A DNA stretch of 64,000 nt from contig NZ_WBJR01000003.1 of the NCBI RefSeq assembly GCF_009296185.1, forward strand, positions 62,001-126,000, read 5' to 3'. Below the pieces are notes generated by a model. That model saw nothing but the letters and a program-made list of their open reading frames with translations, was not told the DNA's origin and made no database searches. The position numbers and the translations under genes were made by a program. The DNA comes from Hydrogenovibrio sp. JE_KL2 (lineage in GTDB: Bacteria > Pseudomonadota > Gammaproteobacteria > Thiomicrospirales > Thiomicrospiraceae). Positions 33,726-42,408 of the stretch are shown piece by piece. The first letter of the stretch is position 1. Each line of letters opens with the position of its first letter.

Positions 33726-34679
33726 CTAATTAACCGAAAGTCTATCCATAAAGTTAGGCTCATCGTCATAACCGCCCGGAATGCCTTTGGTGACAATCGC
33801 CACCGCATCGTGCGGATGCAAGCTTTCTAAGTGGTTGACGCGAATCCAGAAGTCCAAGTATTCGGTTTGTTGGCTGAACTTGTTCTGCAAGCGGCGTGCC
33901 GCGTCTTCACAGAACATCAGGTTACTGGCGTTCAAACGCGCGAATTCTTGTTCGTCTTCACGTTTTACCGTTGATTGCACCGGTGTTTGCACCGCATCTT
34001 CAATCTGGTTGATTAATGCGGAAATCGACAAAGGCGCATCTTCAGCAATCTTGACCTTAACCTGAGCATAAGAGCGCTGGCTGTGCGGCGTGGCGCAGAT
34101 GCCTTCCGGTGTACCCAGCCAAGCAAGCACTTCTTGGTAATCGACTTGATCACCGGAGAATTTTTGCTCAAACGCTTCTTGAATCAGTTGGCGAGACAAG
34201 GCTGCCGAACAGGGGCAAGTGGAGGAGTAGGGTACGCTGATGCTGACTTCGCATTCAAAGTTTCCATCTTTCAGTTCACCGCGCAAAGTGGTTGGATAAT
34301 GTTTCCAGCCTGAATTGTCGGATTTCAATGAACGACGTCTTTCATAGTAGTCGAAACGGAATTCGACAAAAGCGTGGTTGCTCAGTCCTTCGTGGGAGTC
34401 GATAAAGGCTTGCAATAAACCTTTGACATGTTGCGCGGATAACGGCGCTTCGGCTCCTTTTTGATCCAACAGTACATATAGGCGAGACATGTGAATGCCT
34501 TTGCTAAGTGGATCGTCAAGACTGACATAGGCTTGGACTTGTGAGGAAAGTTGGGTTGGTGTGCGTTGCTCGTTTTCGACCAGAATCGGCAGTTCAATGC
34601 CGGACATTCCGACCCAGTTTAGTTTTCCTTGAGGGTTTTCATATGGCTGACAAGCGATATCGGGCATGTTCTTCGTCAT
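33726..34679 (-). CDS. folE2: GTP cyclohydrolase FolE2
   Basis: FolE2 turns GTP into dihydroneopterin triphosphate for folate synthesis and, unlike FolE, does not depend strictly on zinc. The 317-residue protein has the type IB signatures: NWVGMSGIELP, VSVPYSSTCPCSAALSRQLI with the metal-binding Cys, PHSQRSYAQVKV and the C-terminal RVNHLESLHPHDAVA. It follows a COG0523 GTPase on the same strand (203 nt apart). That pairing is often under Zur control in other bacteria, but no convincing Zur box was found. Confidence 0.95.
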   Translation of the reverse strand: MTKNMPDIACQPYENPQGKLNWVGMSGIELPILVENEQRTPTQLSSQVQAYVSLDDPLSKGIHMSRLYVLLDQKGAEAPLSAQHVKGLLQAFIDSHEGLSNHAFVEFRFDYYERRRSLKSDNSGWKHYPTTLRGELKDGNFECEVSISVPYSSTCPCSAALSRQLIQEAFEQKFSGDQVDYQEVLAWLGTPEGICATPHSQRSYAQVKVKIAEDAPLSISALINQIEDAVQTPVQSTVKREDEQEFARLNASNLMFCEDAARRLQNKFSQQTEYLDFWIRVNHLESLHPHDAVAIVTKGIPGGYDDEPNFMDRLSVN

Positions 34680-37450: not shown

Positions 37451-37801
37451 TCATAGATTACACTGCCTTTCCTTTGTCTCATAAGCTTCAAGAGCCAATA
37501 GGTCTTGTTGGCAAGATTCGACGTTGGCAAGCTGTTCTTTGAGTGTCTCTAGGTAGGAGGATGGAAGGAGTGATGTCTCCAATTGGTAATGCATCCAGGT
37601 ACCTTCACGATGAGATTTCACCCAACCTGCGTTTTTCAGGTAAGCCAAATGTCTTGAAATCAAACTTTGACCCGCTTGCATCACTGCCACAAAATCACAA
37701 ACACACAGGTCTTCCCGGTTGAGTAGAAGGTAAAGGATGCGCAGGCGCATCGGCTCACTCAAGGCTTTGAAAAACTGGCTGTAATCTTCAATAGATGTCA
37801 T
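37451..37801 (-). CDS. arsR: ArsR-family metalloid-responsive repressor
   Basis: The 116-residue winged-helix protein has the ArsR arsenite/antimonite site in LCVCDF (C33, C35) at the start of the recognition helix, followed by QAGQSLISRHLAYLKNAGWV. Further cysteines lie near residues 97 and 114. It probably releases the divergent promoter at 37852-37880 when arsenite binds. It is transcribed away from the ars operon. Confidence 0.94.
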   Translation of the reverse strand: MTSIEDYSQFFKALSEPMRLRILYLLLNREDLCVCDFVAVMQAGQSLISRHLAYLKNAGWVKSHREGTWMHYQLETSLLPSSYLETLKEQLANVESCQQDLLALEAYETKERQCNL

Positions 37802-37851: not shown

Positions 37852-37880
37852 TTGAATATATCCGTATAAACGGATATTAT
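37852..37880 (+). promoter_or_regulatory. ars operon promoter with palindromic operator in the spacer
   Basis: TTGAAT (37852-37857) and TATTAT (37875-37880) are 17 nt apart. The inverted repeat ATATCCG-TATAAA-CGGATAT (37858-37877) fills the spacer and enters the -10 box. This is the layout expected for repression by the adjacent ArsR, with release by metalloid. Confidence 0.75.
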
Positions 37881-37919: not shown

Positions 37920-38885
37920 ATGTTTGAACAAATTGCCAGTTTTCTAGTGTATCGAGTTTTTGCTATGTCTGCCCATACGCAGGCAGCAGAGGCATTGCAT
38001 TTTTTTATCATGGACTTGCTGAAAATATTTTTCATGCTGGTGGTGATTATTTATGTCATCGGTTTGTTCCGTGCATTTATCTCGACGGAGTGGATTCGCG
38101 ATAAGGTGCAGGGCAAAGCGAAATGGCTGGCGAGAAGCATGGCGATAACATTGGGCAGCGTGACACCGTTTTGTTCTTGTTCTTCGGTGCCTTTATTTGT
38201 CGGGTTTGTGGAAGCGAGAATTCCGATGGGAATCACCTTTGCCTTTCTCATCGCCAGTCCGATGATCAATGAAGTCGCGGTGGTGTTGCTGTGGAGCCTA
38301 CTTGGCTGGCAGGTGACCTTACTTTACGTTGCGGCAGGCTTGGTTGTGGCATACATCGGTTCAGTCGTGTTGGAGTGGTTCAAACCGGAGCGCTGGGTGG
38401 AGTCCTATGTTTGGGAATTGAAAAGTCATGGCTCGGCCGGCAGTGCGATGAACCCGAAAATGTCTTGGCAACAGCGTCACCAGTTTGCGCGTGAAGAAGT
38501 GAAAACCATCGTCGGAAGAATCTGGAAATGGGTGGTTGTCGGGATTGCATTAGGCGCGTTATTTCATGGTTATGTGCCGCAGGAATGGGTAACGACTTAT
38601 TTAAGCGGTAAAGATAATTGGTGGTCAGTGCCTGCGGCGGTGTTGCTAGGCGTTCCACTGTATTCAAATGCAACGGGTGTGGTGCCGATTGTTGAGGCGA
38701 TGTTGAACAAAGGCGTGCCGATTGGTACCAGCTTGGCGCTGATGATGAGTATTGCAGCCTTGTCGTTGCCTGAATTGTTGATTTTGAGAAAAGTGATTCG
38801 CTGGCCTGCATTGGCGGCTTTTGTCGGGGTACTGACGGTGGCGTTTATATTGGTCGGTTATCTGTTTAATTTTGTATTTGGTTAA
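37920..38885 (+). CDS. COG0701 (ArsP/DUF318-like) permease
   Basis: The 321-residue protein has eight or so membrane segments and the COG0701 signature around GSVTPFCSCSSVPLFVGFVEA (paired Cys) and IASPMINEVAVVLL, repeated in the second half as VPLYSNATGVVPIVEAML. ArsP relatives export trivalent organoarsenicals; SO_0444-type members have an unclear substrate. As the first gene of the ars operon it is likely to move arsenic compounds, by inference. A small redox-like protein follows, as is common for this class. Confidence 0.88.
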   Translation: MFEQIASFLVYRVFAMSAHTQAAEALHFFIMDLLKIFFMLVVIIYVIGLFRAFISTEWIRDKVQGKAKWLARSMAITLGSVTPFCSCSSVPLFVGFVEARIPMGITFAFLIASPMINEVAVVLLWSLLGWQVTLLYVAAGLVVAYIGSVVLEWFKPERWVESYVWELKSHGSAGSAMNPKMSWQQRHQFAREEVKTIVGRIWKWVVVGIALGALFHGYVPQEWVTTYLSGKDNWWSVPAAVLLGVPLYSNATGVVPIVEAMLNKGVPIGTSLALMMSIAALSLPELLILRKVIRWPALAAFVGVLTVAFILVGYLFNFVFG

Positions 38886-38918: not shown

Positions 38919-39482
38919 ATGAAAGACAATTTGATGGTTCGTATGATGACGTCGATGATTTTGTTTTCAATCATCATGGCGCATGTTTTCGGGCAGGTGA
39001 ACCTATTTGAACTTAACTGGTTGTGGTTAGGTATCTTTGCCGCGGGCATGGGGTTACAAGCCACCTTTACCGGATGGTGCCCAAGCAACTTGGTTGGCAA
39101 GTTGTCTAAAACCGGTGAGTGTTGTCCTAGCGGTAGTTGCGAAACGACTGCGGAGAAAAAAACAGAGTCTTCTTGTTGTTCAGGTGCCGAACAAACGTCC
39201 TGCTGTGATTCAACTGCGGAGAGCGCAACAGACGGGATGGAAATCAAGGTATTGGGAACCGGTTGCGCCAACTGCGACAACACGATCAAACGTATTGAGA
39301 TGGTCGCGAAAGAGATGAACATTGCGGTGAATGTCGTTGCCGTTCATGATGTAGCGAAAATTCTGGAATATGGCGTCATGTCTACGCCTGCGGTGGTAAT
39401 CGCTGAAATGGTGGTGCATTCAGGGAGTGTGCCCTCCAAAGAAAAAATTCAGGAATGGTTTGAGCAAACCCCTCAAGCGTAA
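38919..39482 (+). CDS. DUF2892-like / thioredoxin-like fusion with cysteine-rich linker
   Basis: The 187-residue protein has three parts. Residues 1-60 contain two membrane segments of the DUF2892 type (ILFSIIMAHVF; LGIFAAGMGLQATFTGWCP). Residues 64-105 are a linker with seven cysteines, mostly in pairs (C68, C69, C73, C86, C87, C95, C96). Residues 107-187 are a thioredoxin-like domain of the redox-active disulfide protein 2 type with GTGCANC (C116, C119) and cis-Pro in STPAVV. Position after the permease suggests a membrane-held redox or metalloid-binding partner. The linker is unusual and could bind arsenite. Confidence 0.8.
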   Translation: MKDNLMVRMMTSMILFSIIMAHVFGQVNLFELNWLWLGIFAAGMGLQATFTGWCPSNLVGKLSKTGECCPSGSCETTAEKKTESSCCSGAEQTSCCDSTAESATDGMEIKVLGTGCANCDNTIKRIEMVAKEMNIAVNVVAVHDVAKILEYGVMSTPAVVIAEMVVHSGSVPSKEKIQEWFEQTPQA

Positions 39483-39559
39483 AATTTCATCAGACTTTCA
39501 TATATTCGTCATTTATTGCTGATGGAATGTATAGGTTTTTTCTTGTACCGGAGACCGAG

Positions 39560-40057
39560 ATGTTTAATGTTTTATTTATTTGTACCGCAAATTCAGCGAG
39601 AAGCATTATTGCGGAAGCTTTATTGAACAATGTTTCAAACGGGCGCTTTCAAGCGTTTAGCGCAGGGAGTGCTCCGTTGGGGCATGTTCACCCTAAGACA
39701 CTGGAGGTGTTGAAAGGCGCGGGACTGAGCACGGAAGGACTACGTTCAAAAAGCTGGGATGAATTTTCCGGCTCAGACGCACCGCAAATGGATTTGATTA
39801 TCACCGTATGTGATGCCGCAAAAGGCGAAGTTTGCCCTGTATGGCCAGGGCATCCGGCCACGGCACACTGGGGTATTGAAGATCCTTTGAGAAATGGCAA
39901 TGAGGACATCAGACCTTTCCGTGAGGCTTTGCGTTATTTGGAAAACCGCATTCGCTTGTTTACCGAGCTGCCAATGGAAAAATTGGAACACCTTAAATTG
40001 CAACAACACATGGATGAAGTCGCTGCTTTGCATCATGAAGCCGCATCTTTGAAGTAA
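39560..40057 (+). CDS. arsC: Arsenate reductase, low-molecular-weight phosphatase type
   Basis: The 165-residue enzyme has the CX5R loop CTANSARS (C8 to R14) and two more cysteines, C84 and C92 (ITVCDAAKGEVCP), placed like the relay cysteines of thioredoxin-coupled ArsC. It reduces arsenate to arsenite. The start at 39560 (MFNVLFICT) is chosen because it opens directly into the first beta strand and has GGAG about 6 nt upstream. It lies between the fusion protein gene and gapdh in the ars operon. Confidence 0.93.
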   Translation: MFNVLFICTANSARSIIAEALLNNVSNGRFQAFSAGSAPLGHVHPKTLEVLKGAGLSTEGLRSKSWDEFSGSDAPQMDLIITVCDAAKGEVCPVWPGHPATAHWGIEDPLRNGNEDIRPFREALRYLENRIRLFTELPMEKLEHLKLQQHMDEVAALHHEAASLK

Positions 40058-40088: not shown

Positions 40089-41108
40089 ATGCAAAAAATA
40101 CGCGTAGCGATCAACGGCTTCGGCCGCATGGGGCGTTTGGCGTTAAGAGAAGCCTTTGATTGGCCTCAGGTTGAGTTTGTGCACATCAATGAGATTGCCA
40201 CTGACGTGGTTGGGTCGGCGCATTTGCTACATTTTGATTCGGCGCACGGGCGCTGGCACCATGAGGTGACGGCCAACCCAGAAGAGCAAACCATGGCGAT
40301 TGAAGAGCAGACAATTTCTTACTCAAGCAACAAAGACATTGCGGATACCGATTGGGCGGCATTGAGTGTGGATGTGGTGATTGAAGCCACTGGTAAATTT
40401 CGCACCAAAGAAGCATTGCAGCCTTATCTTGACCAAGGTGTGAAGCAAATCATCGTTGCCGCGCCAATGAAAGAAGGTATCAAGAATATCGTCATGGGCA
40501 TTAACGATGATGTCTTCGTTGCCGGGCAAGACCCGATTATCACTTCCGCTTCTTGTACCACCAACTGTATCGCGCCGGTCATCAAGGTGATGCATGAAAA
40601 GTTGGGCATCAAGCACGGGATGATTACCACCATGCATGATCGCACCAACACGCAAAAAGTAGTTGATCACGGCCATGCCGATTTGCGTCGTGCCAGAGCT
40701 TCGTTTGAATCTTTGATTCCGACTACCACGGGGTCAGCAAAAGCGATAGGGACGATTTTCCCCGAATTGAACGGGCGATTGAACGGCATTGCGGTGCGTG
40801 TCCCTTTCATGAATGCTTCCCTGACGGATTTGGTGTTGGAAATGGAGCGAGAAACTTCCGTCGAGGAAGTGAATGCCTTGTTGAAAGAAGCTTCTGAAAC
40901 TTATTTGAAAGGCATTCTTGGTTTTGAAGAGCGTCCTTTGGTTTCGGTCGATTTTGAAGGTGAACCTTGTTCTTCGGTGATTGATGCACCATCGACTATG
41001 GTGGTGAACGGCACGCAAGTGAAACTGCTGGCATGGTACGACAATGAAATCGGTTATGTGTTGAGGATGATGGAGCTGGCGGTAAAAGTCGGTCAACTGA
41101 ATCCTTAA
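40089..41108 (+). CDS. ArsJ-associated glyceraldehyde-3-phosphate dehydrogenase
   Basis: The 339-residue enzyme has the NAD-binding [13 protein letters not shown] and the catalytic Cys156 in [11 protein letters not shown], with the downstream [16 protein letters not shown] and WYDNEIGY. It lies directly before arsJ, the known pairing in which GAPDH joins arsenate to glyceraldehyde 3-phosphate, giving 1-arseno-3-phosphoglycerate for export. It is therefore probably the arsenate-dedicated copy, not the central glycolytic enzyme. Confidence 0.92.
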
Positions 41109-41196: not shown

Positions 41197-42408
41197 ATGA
41201 TGAAACTCTCTTCATTACAGCAATATGGCTTGGTGACTGCCAATTATTGGGCGTTTACCTTGACCGACGGTGCCATCCGCATGCTGGTGCTGCTCTATTT
41301 CAATCAACTCGGTTACTCTCCTTTCGACATTGCCCTGTTGTTCTTGCTGTATGAATTCTTCGGCGTGGTGACAAACTTAATCGGCGGTTGGCTTGGCGCG
41401 AGGCTGGGGCTGAATGTCACCATGAACCTCGGCTTGGTGCTGCAGATTATTGCCCTGATGATGTTGACGGTGGATAGCAGTTATTTGACGGTGGCTTATG
41501 TGATGGCCGCACAGGCTTTGTCCGGTATTGCCAAAGACCTCAACAAAATGTCGGCGAAAAGTTCCATCAAAAGTCTGGCATCAGATGCCAGTGGGCAGCT
41601 CTACTCATGGGTGGCATTGCTAACGGGTTCGAAAAACGCATTGAAAGGCGTTGGGTTCTTTATCGGGGCGGCGTTGCTGGAAGGCATCGGCTTCACCAAT
41701 GCGCTTTATGTGTTGGTCGCCATTATTGTTTTGCCATTGGTGTTTTCCATTTTCTTGTTGGATGCGTCGCTTGGCAAAGCAAAAACCCAATCCAAATTCA
41801 GTGAAATCTTTTCTAAGTCGCAAGCCATCAACTGGTTGTCTGCGGCACGATTCTTTTTGTTTGGTGCAAGAGACATTTGGTTTGTGGTGGCATTGCCGGT
41901 CTTTTTGGAGTCGGTGTTGGGATGGTCGTTCATGGCGGTCGGAACCTTTATGGCGGCTTGGGTAATCGGTTATGGATTTGTACAAGCAATCACGCCCAAA
42001 CTGACAGGCATTAAAAAAGGTAAGGCTGTCGAAGGTGGTGCGAAGCCGACATCCATGACGGCGATGAAACTGGCGGTATTGTTGGCGTTGATTCCAATCG
42101 CGATGGCGCCGTTGCTGTCATGGCATCCGCAAACGGTCATCGTAGTCGGCTTGATGATTTTTGGTATCGTGTTTGCACTCAACTCTGCGGTGCATTCTTA
42201 TCTGATTGTGTCTTTTGCGGATGAAGACGGTGCATCGAAAGATGTCGGTTTTTATTACATGGCAAATGCCGGCGGGCGTTTAATCGGTACGTTATTGTCC
42301 GGTTTGACCTATCAGTTTGCAGGAATGGAAGCGAGTCTAGTGGTCTCTTCTGTGTTTGTTATGTTGGCGGCGGCGTTGGTTTTAAAAGCCAAGCCGCATG
42401 CGCTTTAG
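41197..42408 (+). CDS. arsJ: ArsJ, 1-arseno-3-phosphoglycerate efflux transporter
   Basis: The 403-residue major facilitator protein has the ArsJ N-terminus (QQYGLVTANYWAFTLTDGAIRMLVLLYF), LIGGWLGARLG, and a conserved GIAKDLNKMSAKSSIKSL segment between helices. About 12 membrane segments are present. In the established pathway it exports the unstable arseno-phosphoglycerate made by the neighbouring GAPDH, giving arsenate resistance without reduction. It is the last gene of the ars operon and ends 6 nt from a convergent gene. Confidence 0.94.
   Translation: MMKLSSLQQYGLVTANYWAFTLTDGAIRMLVLLYFNQLGYSPFDIALLFLLYEFFGVVTNLIGGWLGARLGLNVTMNLGLVLQIIALMMLTVDSSYLTVAYVMAAQALSGIAKDLNKMSAKSSIKSLASDASGQLYSWVALLTGSKNALKGVGFFIGAALLEGIGFTNALYVLVAIIVLPLVFSIFLLDASLGKAKTQSKFSEIFSKSQAINWLSAARFFLFGARDIWFVVALPVFLESVLGWSFMAVGTFMAAWVIGYGFVQAITPKLTGIKKGKAVEGGAKPTSMTAMKLAVLLALIPIAMAPLLSWHPQTVIVVGLMIFGIVFALNSAVHSYLIVSFADEDGASKDVGFYYMANAGGRLIGTLLSGLTYQFAGMEASLVVSSVFVMLAAALVLKAKPHAL

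Follow-up and report, generated by a model that had tools for sequence, protein, structure and literature searches.

A membrane-anchored fusion of a cysteine-pair linker with an ArsE-type thioredoxin as a candidate arsenic relay beside ArsP_1 permeases

What might a small protein that joins membrane segments, a cysteine-rich linker and a thioredoxin-like domain do next to a permease in an arsenic resistance operon? The question is raised by a gene of Hydrogenovibrio sp. JE_KL2, which lies in a stretch of 64,000 nucleotides that was analysed as a whole (hereafter called the window). The original prediction for this gene, made from the DNA alone, described a 187-residue join of a DUF2892-type hairpin, a seven-Cys linker with three CC pairs and a CANC domain, and the open reading frame and its positions are exactly as described (Table 1). 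It also proposed that the protein hands arsenite or a thiolated arsenical to the adjoining permease; for a thiolated arsenical as the cargo, we found no evidence in this analysis.

Ten Cys residues are present in the fusion protein, namely C54 in a GWCP motif, seven in the linker, which form three CC pairs plus C74, and C116 and C119 of the CANC motif. The C-terminal domain matches the Pfam entry Thioredoxin_3 (PF13192, residues 107-181, E 3.6e-25) and scores 90.8 bits over residues 108-181 with the NCBIfam model TIGR00412, named 'MTH895/ArsE family thioredoxin-like protein' (cut-off 62). The hallmarks of the ArsE family, CxxC and T-P, are present, and C116, C119, T156 and P157 are invariant in 37/37 aligned relatives. 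With the YgaP-like_TM profile (PF11127), the fusion protein scores 17.9 bits, below the gathering score of 25.3; the profile matches 32/37 aligned relatives at E<=0.01 (best 7.5e-8). Over the 37 sequences, the mean numbers of Lys plus Arg residues are 2.68 at the N-terminus, 0.14 in the loop and 2.00 after helix 2, a charge bias that by rule of thumb predicts an N-in/C-in hairpin. With both of its ends on that side of the membrane, the linker and the thioredoxin domain would therefore be cytoplasmic. A single-sequence AlphaFold model places helices at residues 2-25 and 29-50; because its overall confidence is low (mean pLDDT 50.9, pTM 0.24), only these two N-terminal helices were used. The fusion protein has no match to ArsD in Pfam or NCBIfam, searched to E 1. 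An anti-phage role for the locus was considered and rejected, as PADLOC gave no match.

Table 1. Features of the fusion gene and its operon in the window
Feature	Coordinates	Strand	Description
ArsR/SmtB repressor, divergent	37451-37801	-	PF01022 E 3e-12; NF033788 84.7 bits, cut-off 55
Perfect 8-bp dyad ATATCCGT-4-ACGGATAT	37858-37877	.	inside promoter-like site 37852-37880 (+), before permease
COG0701 / ArsP_1 permease, CSCSS motif	37920-38885	+	PF03773 E 4e-73
Fusion protein gene	38919-39482	+	ORF, 187 aa, ATG start
Two-helix membrane hairpin, residues 1-55, ends in invariant C54-P55	38919-39083	+	YgaP-like_TM / DUF2892 type
Cysteine linker, residues 56-106: C68-C69, C74, C86-C87, C95-C96	39084-39236	+	cytoplasmic by charge rule
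MTH895/ArsE-family thioredoxin-like domain, residues 107-187, C116-A-N-C119, T156-P157	39237-39482	+	
ArsC, low-molecular-weight phosphatase type	39527-40057	+	PF01451 E 1.2e-20; NCBIfam ArsC cut-offs not reached
ArsJ-associated GAPDH	40089-41108	+	NF033735 533.6 bits, cut-off 450
ArsJ, MFS organoarsenical exporter	41197-42408	+	NF033734 580.6 bits, cut-off 400

Upstream of the fusion gene, at a distance of 33 bp, lies the gene of the permease, whose assignment to COG0701 in the original prediction is confirmed by its ArsP_1 score (PF03773, 246.6 bits, gathering score 32.3). Its scores with the NCBIfam models of SO_0444 Cu/Zn efflux (100.3 bits, cut-off 300) and of the equivalog SaoE (120.2 bits, cut-off 325) remain below the cut-offs, as does that of the proteins of the locus with the SaoT equivalog (13.6 bits, cut-off 65). 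Genes for ArsC, GAPDH and ArsJ, the substrate of which is 1-arseno-3-phosphoglycerate, follow the fusion gene. The repressor has an LCVCD motif, which resembles the As(III) site described in ArsR proteins. As for the dyad that precedes the permease gene, it is identical in two other loci, L028 and L035, in the latter of which the surrounding DNA has diverged. Six further loci gave a 7-bp dyad of related sequence (L050), imperfect look-alikes by eye (L044 and L047), a different perfect dyad (L039) and nothing resembling the window dyad (L029 and L041). As a control, the 64-kb window has 4 perfect dyads of the 8-4-8 form. Promoter-like hits in the window barely exceed those in shuffles (8 vs 6.0), and since as a class they occur at about the shuffle frequency, the evidence is the conserved dyad and not the promoter score. 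Judging from this dyad, the site is a probable ArsR operator, and the operon made up of the permease, fusion, ArsC, GAPDH and ArsJ genes is probably under ArsR control. Elsewhere in the window, a CobW-family GTPase gene (PF02492, 34883-35953) lies near an ORF at 33726-34679 whose product looks like a FolE2 GTP cyclohydrolase, a pairing known from zinc-limitation responses.

We searched 93 related genomes, 57 of which gave some match, and took 53 stretches for study. A search for the same fusion beside COG0701 permeases, as the original prediction had proposed, yielded 41 fusions, spread over 40 of 58 genomes that belong to the same family as the bacterium. Hairpin, linker and thioredoxin come in this order in 37 of them, and four fusions, all in one genus, are reversed (thioredoxin-linker-hairpin). 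A permease is encoded upstream on the same strand in 40/41 cases, within 120 bp in 35. The reverse-order loci (L062, L063, L069 and L070) have a Cys-rich linker, a terminal SCC and a permease gene that is upstream but more distant. In five loci, a gene intervenes between permease and fusion. It is an ORF of DUF6428 type in L039 and L040 (gap of 536 bp in L040, whose protein matches PF20001 at E 1.3e-35 and has a CC tail; the ORF of L039 is alike by eye), a hairpin gene on its own in both L047 and L050, and in L058 (768-1727) a gene that looks to us like a cation diffusion facilitator. The sole fusion of the 41 devoid of an adjoining permease, L034:231-830, is adjoined by a divergent ArsR-like gene. 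The arsenic setting that had been predicted is supported by GAPDH and ArsJ genes on the same strand in 26/41 fusion loci, an ArsC gene in 9/41 and, with both strands counted, an ArsR-like gene in 28/41, all of these counts being lower bounds because some stretches stop at contig ends. The C[ST]CS motif is found in 84/84 distinct permeases of more than 250 residues (an earlier total of 108 contained duplicates).

Some genes in the stretches studied appear to be split or shortened, through decay or assembly error, including those of an ArsJ (L031:8505-9742), a permease (L037:5371-6338) and a helical-CC protein (L130:5197-5304; see below for this family). Standalone hairpin proteins with CC tails were also observed (L074:6022-6354, L075:6415-6735, L076:6701-7042 and L077:6703-6963), with no permease or thioredoxin match around them in the stretches examined, and inspection by eye of the ORFs near L074 and L076 led to no recognisable arsenic gene. 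A single hairpin-only match in Mucilaginibacter flavidus, the sole locus that came from a scan of genome contigs, was not used.

Are the linker cysteines selected? The alignment consists of the 37 hairpin-linker-thioredoxin rows, chosen by their hairpin and thioredoxin matches and not by Cys, with the four reverse fusions left out. In addition to the four thioredoxin residues mentioned above, C54 and P55 are invariant, while at least 90% of the rows share C68, C69, C74 and C95. Every linker (37/37), counted between residues 56 and 107 of the window protein and 42-98 residues long, has at least seven Cys residues and at least two CC pairs, the number of pairs ranging from 2 to 9. Shuffling each of the 37 linkers gave 47.0 expected CC pairs, compared with 168 observed, and 336 of the 389 linker Cys residues sit in pairs; the linkers of L031 and L060 are not individually significant (p about 0.1). 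In 16 close pairs of proteins (thioredoxin identity >=75%; the pairs are not independent), identical columns make up 146/155 of the linker Cys (94%, a value that is inflated by the tendency of MAFFT to align Cys but sound in its direction), 479/899 of the other linker positions (53%) and 1015/1232 of the thioredoxin positions. CC dipeptides are rare in the window's 64 picked ORFs, with seven in 19,624 residues, three of which are in the fusion protein. Chance clustering of the cysteines is rejected by the shuffles and the conservation. Expansion of a DNA repeat was considered as the source of the CC pairs and appears less likely, as the Cys codons in the window mix TGT and TGC, and as partner Cys residues are retained although the spacers change. 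At the level of sequence comparison, the strong conservation supports selection on the linker cysteines.

Outside the family, matches were obtained in 170/369 genomes of a class sample that includes four own-family genomes and in 150/398 genomes of a phylum sample that includes at least one. Among the matches listed and in the ORF checks (loci L080-L168), no single-ORF fusion of hairpin and thioredoxin was found outside the bacterium's own family, and the only ones in these samples are from the own-family genomes G000, which is that of the window, and G012. In the members checked outside the family, the thioredoxin stands alone and is mostly about 76-120 residues long by ORF. For the class counts, we used 40 loci from non-family genomes with a thioredoxin match at E<=1e-17 among the matches listed, less G071 (L068, permease-thioredoxin pair with no CC carrier) and G083 (L067, with a helical-CC gene). 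The thioredoxin gene is at most 1.2 kb from an ArsP_1-like permease gene on the same strand in 35/40 of these loci, the exceptions being L133, L134, L144, L155 and L157. The hairpin is encoded by a separate gene between permease and thioredoxin in L067, L124, L127, L138 and L161. Among plasmids, 143 records also match, mostly via the thioredoxin domain, and none of the places among the matches listed (best 30 of 143) covers 80% of the fusion. Six plasmid loci were inspected, from Pseudorhizobium NT-26, Ideonella (where arsA follows), Citrobacter Y19, Cereibacter, Enterobacter and Sulfuricella. The thioredoxin comes directly after the permease in five of them, and in Sulfuricella some 1.8 kb separate it from an upstream permease that belongs to the same ars cluster; the pair is near annotated arsenic genes in 5/6, not clearly so in Citrobacter Y19.

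CC tails were found on other carriers in the same slot. In many genomes, a helical protein of about 97-153 residues with a CC-paired C-terminus (often ..CCTPTxSGQSCC), hereafter called helical-CC, is encoded between permease and thioredoxin; the members at L120, L121, L122, L123, L124, L127, L128, L129, L131, L132, L136, L138, L142 and L148 are about 97-137 residues long. For the three members that were tested, no Pfam or NCBIfam model scored above cut-off. The Pfam CMD profile (PF02627) is touched by 4/18 members, with a best E of 3.3e-4, and the best natural PDB hit, ranked after two designed proteins, is a 4-carboxymuconolactone decarboxylase (E 0.027). The family has matches in 20 of the 369 class genomes, and all 15 strong places (E<1e-29) are inside a permease-thioredoxin block. 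Helical-CC genes also occur in 2/9 phylum loci checked (L166 and L168) and in the own-family genomes G020 and G023 (L064 and L066), which have permease, helical-CC and thioredoxin as separate genes. The thioredoxin itself has a CC tail in L085, L127, L129, L130, L131, L137, L147 and L155, and in Pseudorhizobium banfieldiae NT-26 a rhodanese encoded after the thioredoxin (L080:7228-7722) carries CGC and CC pairs in its terminal tail. We also noted CC pairs in the C-terminal tails of proteins encoded in the same gene clusters at L122:7192-7620, L123:8117-8554 and L126:3613-4053, which we take to resemble ArsI lyases.

A CC carrier, meaning a helical-CC gene or a thioredoxin tail, is present in 18/40 class loci, L124 being included by family membership (its tail combines one CC with one CGC), and 22/40 have neither, in a count that contains L134, whose upstream side is beyond the contig. 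The CC element is therefore not needed by the permease-thioredoxin pair in general. The original prediction had named homologues lacking the cysteines as evidence against it: there are none among the 37 aligned in the bacterium's own family, and elsewhere in the class there are these 22 thioredoxin loci. In the same class loci, CC-rich ORFs number 18/106 near the thioredoxin vs 2/318 far from it, a comparison that favours the near set, since the thinning of ORFs prioritised thioredoxin and helical-CC ORFs, and in which one of the two far hits is the helical-CC gene of the same block (L128).

Arsenic exporters of other classes were sought in these genomes. The window's own genome has no ACR3 and no ArsB match, and arsenite made by ArsC there therefore has, as judged from gene content, neither of these two kinds of exporter. 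Of the 40 genomes with the fusion, 35 lack both ACR3 above cut-off and ArsB. We also considered whether the fusion and ACR3/ArsB exclude each other, which would have argued for arsenite export, and rejected this as not significant (5/40 fusion genomes vs 5/18, p 0.26); hence, only the plain absence in 35/40 is used. A search of 34 own-family genomes, like that of the window's genome, gave no ArsM above cut-off.

We propose, with roughly even odds of being right, that the fusion protein acts as an As(III)-thiol relay, tethered to the membrane, which feeds the adjoining ArsP_1 permease. The hairpin would hold the flexible cytoplasmic linker and the ArsE-type thioredoxin domain at the membrane, where the CC pairs would bind As(III) coming from ArsC or from uptake. 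The CANC domain would keep the CC pairs reduced, join in thiol exchange, or both, and the permease would receive arsenic at its conserved CSCSS site and export it, while GAPDH and ArsJ would remove arsenate in parallel. In favour of this proposal we count the position of the fusion after the permease in 40/41 cases, the conservation of the CC pairs and the ars-type operon. The reverse-order fusions, still Cys-rich and still beside a permease, the separate hairpin and thioredoxin genes that follow a permease elsewhere, and the concentration of CC-rich ORFs at the thioredoxin together with the location of 15/15 helical-CC places inside the block also count for it, as do the C[ST]CS motif in all 84 distinct permeases, the lack of ACR3, ArsB and above-cut-off ArsM matches in the window's genome, the plain absence of ACR3 and ArsB from 35/40 fusion genomes and the conserved dyad at the operon promoter. 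Against it are the 22/40 class loci with neither kind of CC carrier, the finding that fusion genomes do not significantly avoid ACR3/ArsB, L034, which has no permease, the five loci with an intervening gene, and the absence of GAPDH/ArsJ from 15/41 and of ArsC from 32/41 fusion loci, on the same strand in the stretch examined.

The characterised ArsP of C. jejuni does not extrude inorganic arsenite, according to the part of the source available (PMC6205960), which either speaks against arsenite as the cargo or means that the carrier alters the range of the permease. The cargo might be trivalent organoarsenicals such as MAs(III) or reduced roxarsone, as for ArsP and ArsEFG, and not inorganic As(III). 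For ArsP, export of both MAs(III) and trivalent roxarsone is described (same excerpt of PMC6205960), and ArsE and ArsF are given as organoarsenical resistance proteins and ArsG as an efflux transporter in an excerpt of PMC9144182, which links the three to organoarsenicals. We nevertheless regard such a cargo as quite unlikely, since the operon has ArsC and GAPDH/ArsJ for inorganic arsenate and since no ArsM reached the cut-off in the 34 own-family genomes, though MAs(III) might come from the environment. It is a shade less probable still that the thioredoxin domain supplies ArsC with electrons, with the CC pairs as redox relays. Such a role was proposed in 2010 for the 'redox-active disulfide protein 2', reported like ArsP in ars operons, with arsC in 7/8 instances (PMC2963123, as far as its text was available); in the window, arsC comes immediately after the fusion gene, and CANC and T-P are invariant. 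The gene neighbourhoods point to the permease instead, as a same-strand ArsC is found in only 9/41 fusion loci vs 40/41 for the permease, and as the class thioredoxins are at most 1.2 kb from a permease in 35/40 loci.

The linker might also be a thiophilic buffer that ties up As(III), Sb(III) or soft metals close to the membrane, shielding the cell and the permease, with no directed hand-off. The varying number of CC pairs (2 to 9) and the standalone CC-tail hairpins with no permease in the stretch examined (L074, L075, L076 and L077) would suit a buffer; its placement after a permease in all but one of the fusions and the fixed first cluster of C68, C69 and C74 would not, and we consider this explanation improbable, if somewhat less so than the organoarsenical cargo. 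Lastly, permease and fusion might act on a different soft metal (Cu, Zn, Hg or Cd), with the ars genes as mere neighbours. The similarity of the permease, below cut-off, to the SO_0444 Cu/Zn efflux and SaoE models, the 15/41 loci lacking same-strand GAPDH/ArsJ and the presumed cation diffusion facilitator gene between permease and fusion in L058 are consistent with this. We find it the least probable of these explanations in view of the window's divergent arsR and the dyad found at the operon promoter, the ArsR-like gene in 28/41 and GAPDH/ArsJ in 26/41 loci, and the annotated arsenic genes near the pair in 5/6 plasmid loci inspected.

A broader form of the relay proposal can be put forward tentatively, and we think it rather doubtful. 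The COG0701 permeases would be fed by exchangeable CC-tail carriers, mutually unrelated but placed alike in the operon (the DUF2892 hairpin linker, a possibly CMD-like helical protein, DUF6428, rhodanese or a thioredoxin tail), each loading As(III) as a protein-bound dithiolate, and the ArsE thioredoxin would release As(III) to CSCSS. A kind of permease of which the characterised representative does not export inorganic arsenite would thereby be turned into an arsenite exporter. The window protein would be carrier, anchor and thioredoxin merged into one.

How does the fusion compare with known systems? Its C-terminal domain belongs with the MTH895/ArsE family, as it scores above the TIGR00412 cut-off and its nearest solved structure is MTH895 (1ilo); the outsiders checked stand alone, whereas the window protein is fused to a hairpin and a CC linker. 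With its pair of helices and its G-x-CP end, the hairpin resembles YgaP-like_TM / DUF2892 (PF11127). YgaP itself has a rhodanese domain; in the fusion, by contrast, it is a CC linker and a thioredoxin that come after the hairpin. SaoT and SaoE are, by their model names, a similar combination of a small thioredoxin-like (seleno)protein with a related permease, but both models score far below cut-off at the window locus. The substrates of ArsEFG differ from the cargo proposed here, being reportedly roxarsone and nitarsone in the 2019 work of Chen, Zhang and Rosen. Compared by description only, ArsEFG is alike in having an ArsE protein plus an efflux transporter, ArsG (PMC9144182, excerpt). The fusion differs from ArsD in being tethered to the membrane and in its presumed partner, which is ArsP_1 and not ArsA/ArsB. 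The ArsD metallochaperone has paired Cys residues. ArsD carries As(III) to the exporter, as the available part of PMC2963123 states, a function that is only proposed for the fusion protein.

The original prediction had seen in this protein a part outside the standard ArsABCDR scheme. This needs to be narrowed, for the thioredoxin half already has the name ArsE and was reported in ars operons in 2010 (PMC2963123, in the portion available). For the membrane-anchored fusion or the CC linker, no description was found in the literature searched, a coverage that leaves out most subscription journals. Neither the thioredoxin type nor its occurrence in ars operons is new, then, and the new part appears to be the fusion with the CC linker. 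The literature consulted, some of it in excerpt, offers no explanation of how ArsP_1/COG0701 permeases are supplied with substrate or why an ArsE-type thioredoxin accompanies them. The CC tails that recur on unrelated neighbours provide a simple test set. If the linker is a tethered arsenite relay, the fusion protein would correspond to ArsD, but bound to the membrane and serving another family of transporters, and this would account for the removal of arsenite in genomes that have ArsC but neither ACR3 nor ArsB.
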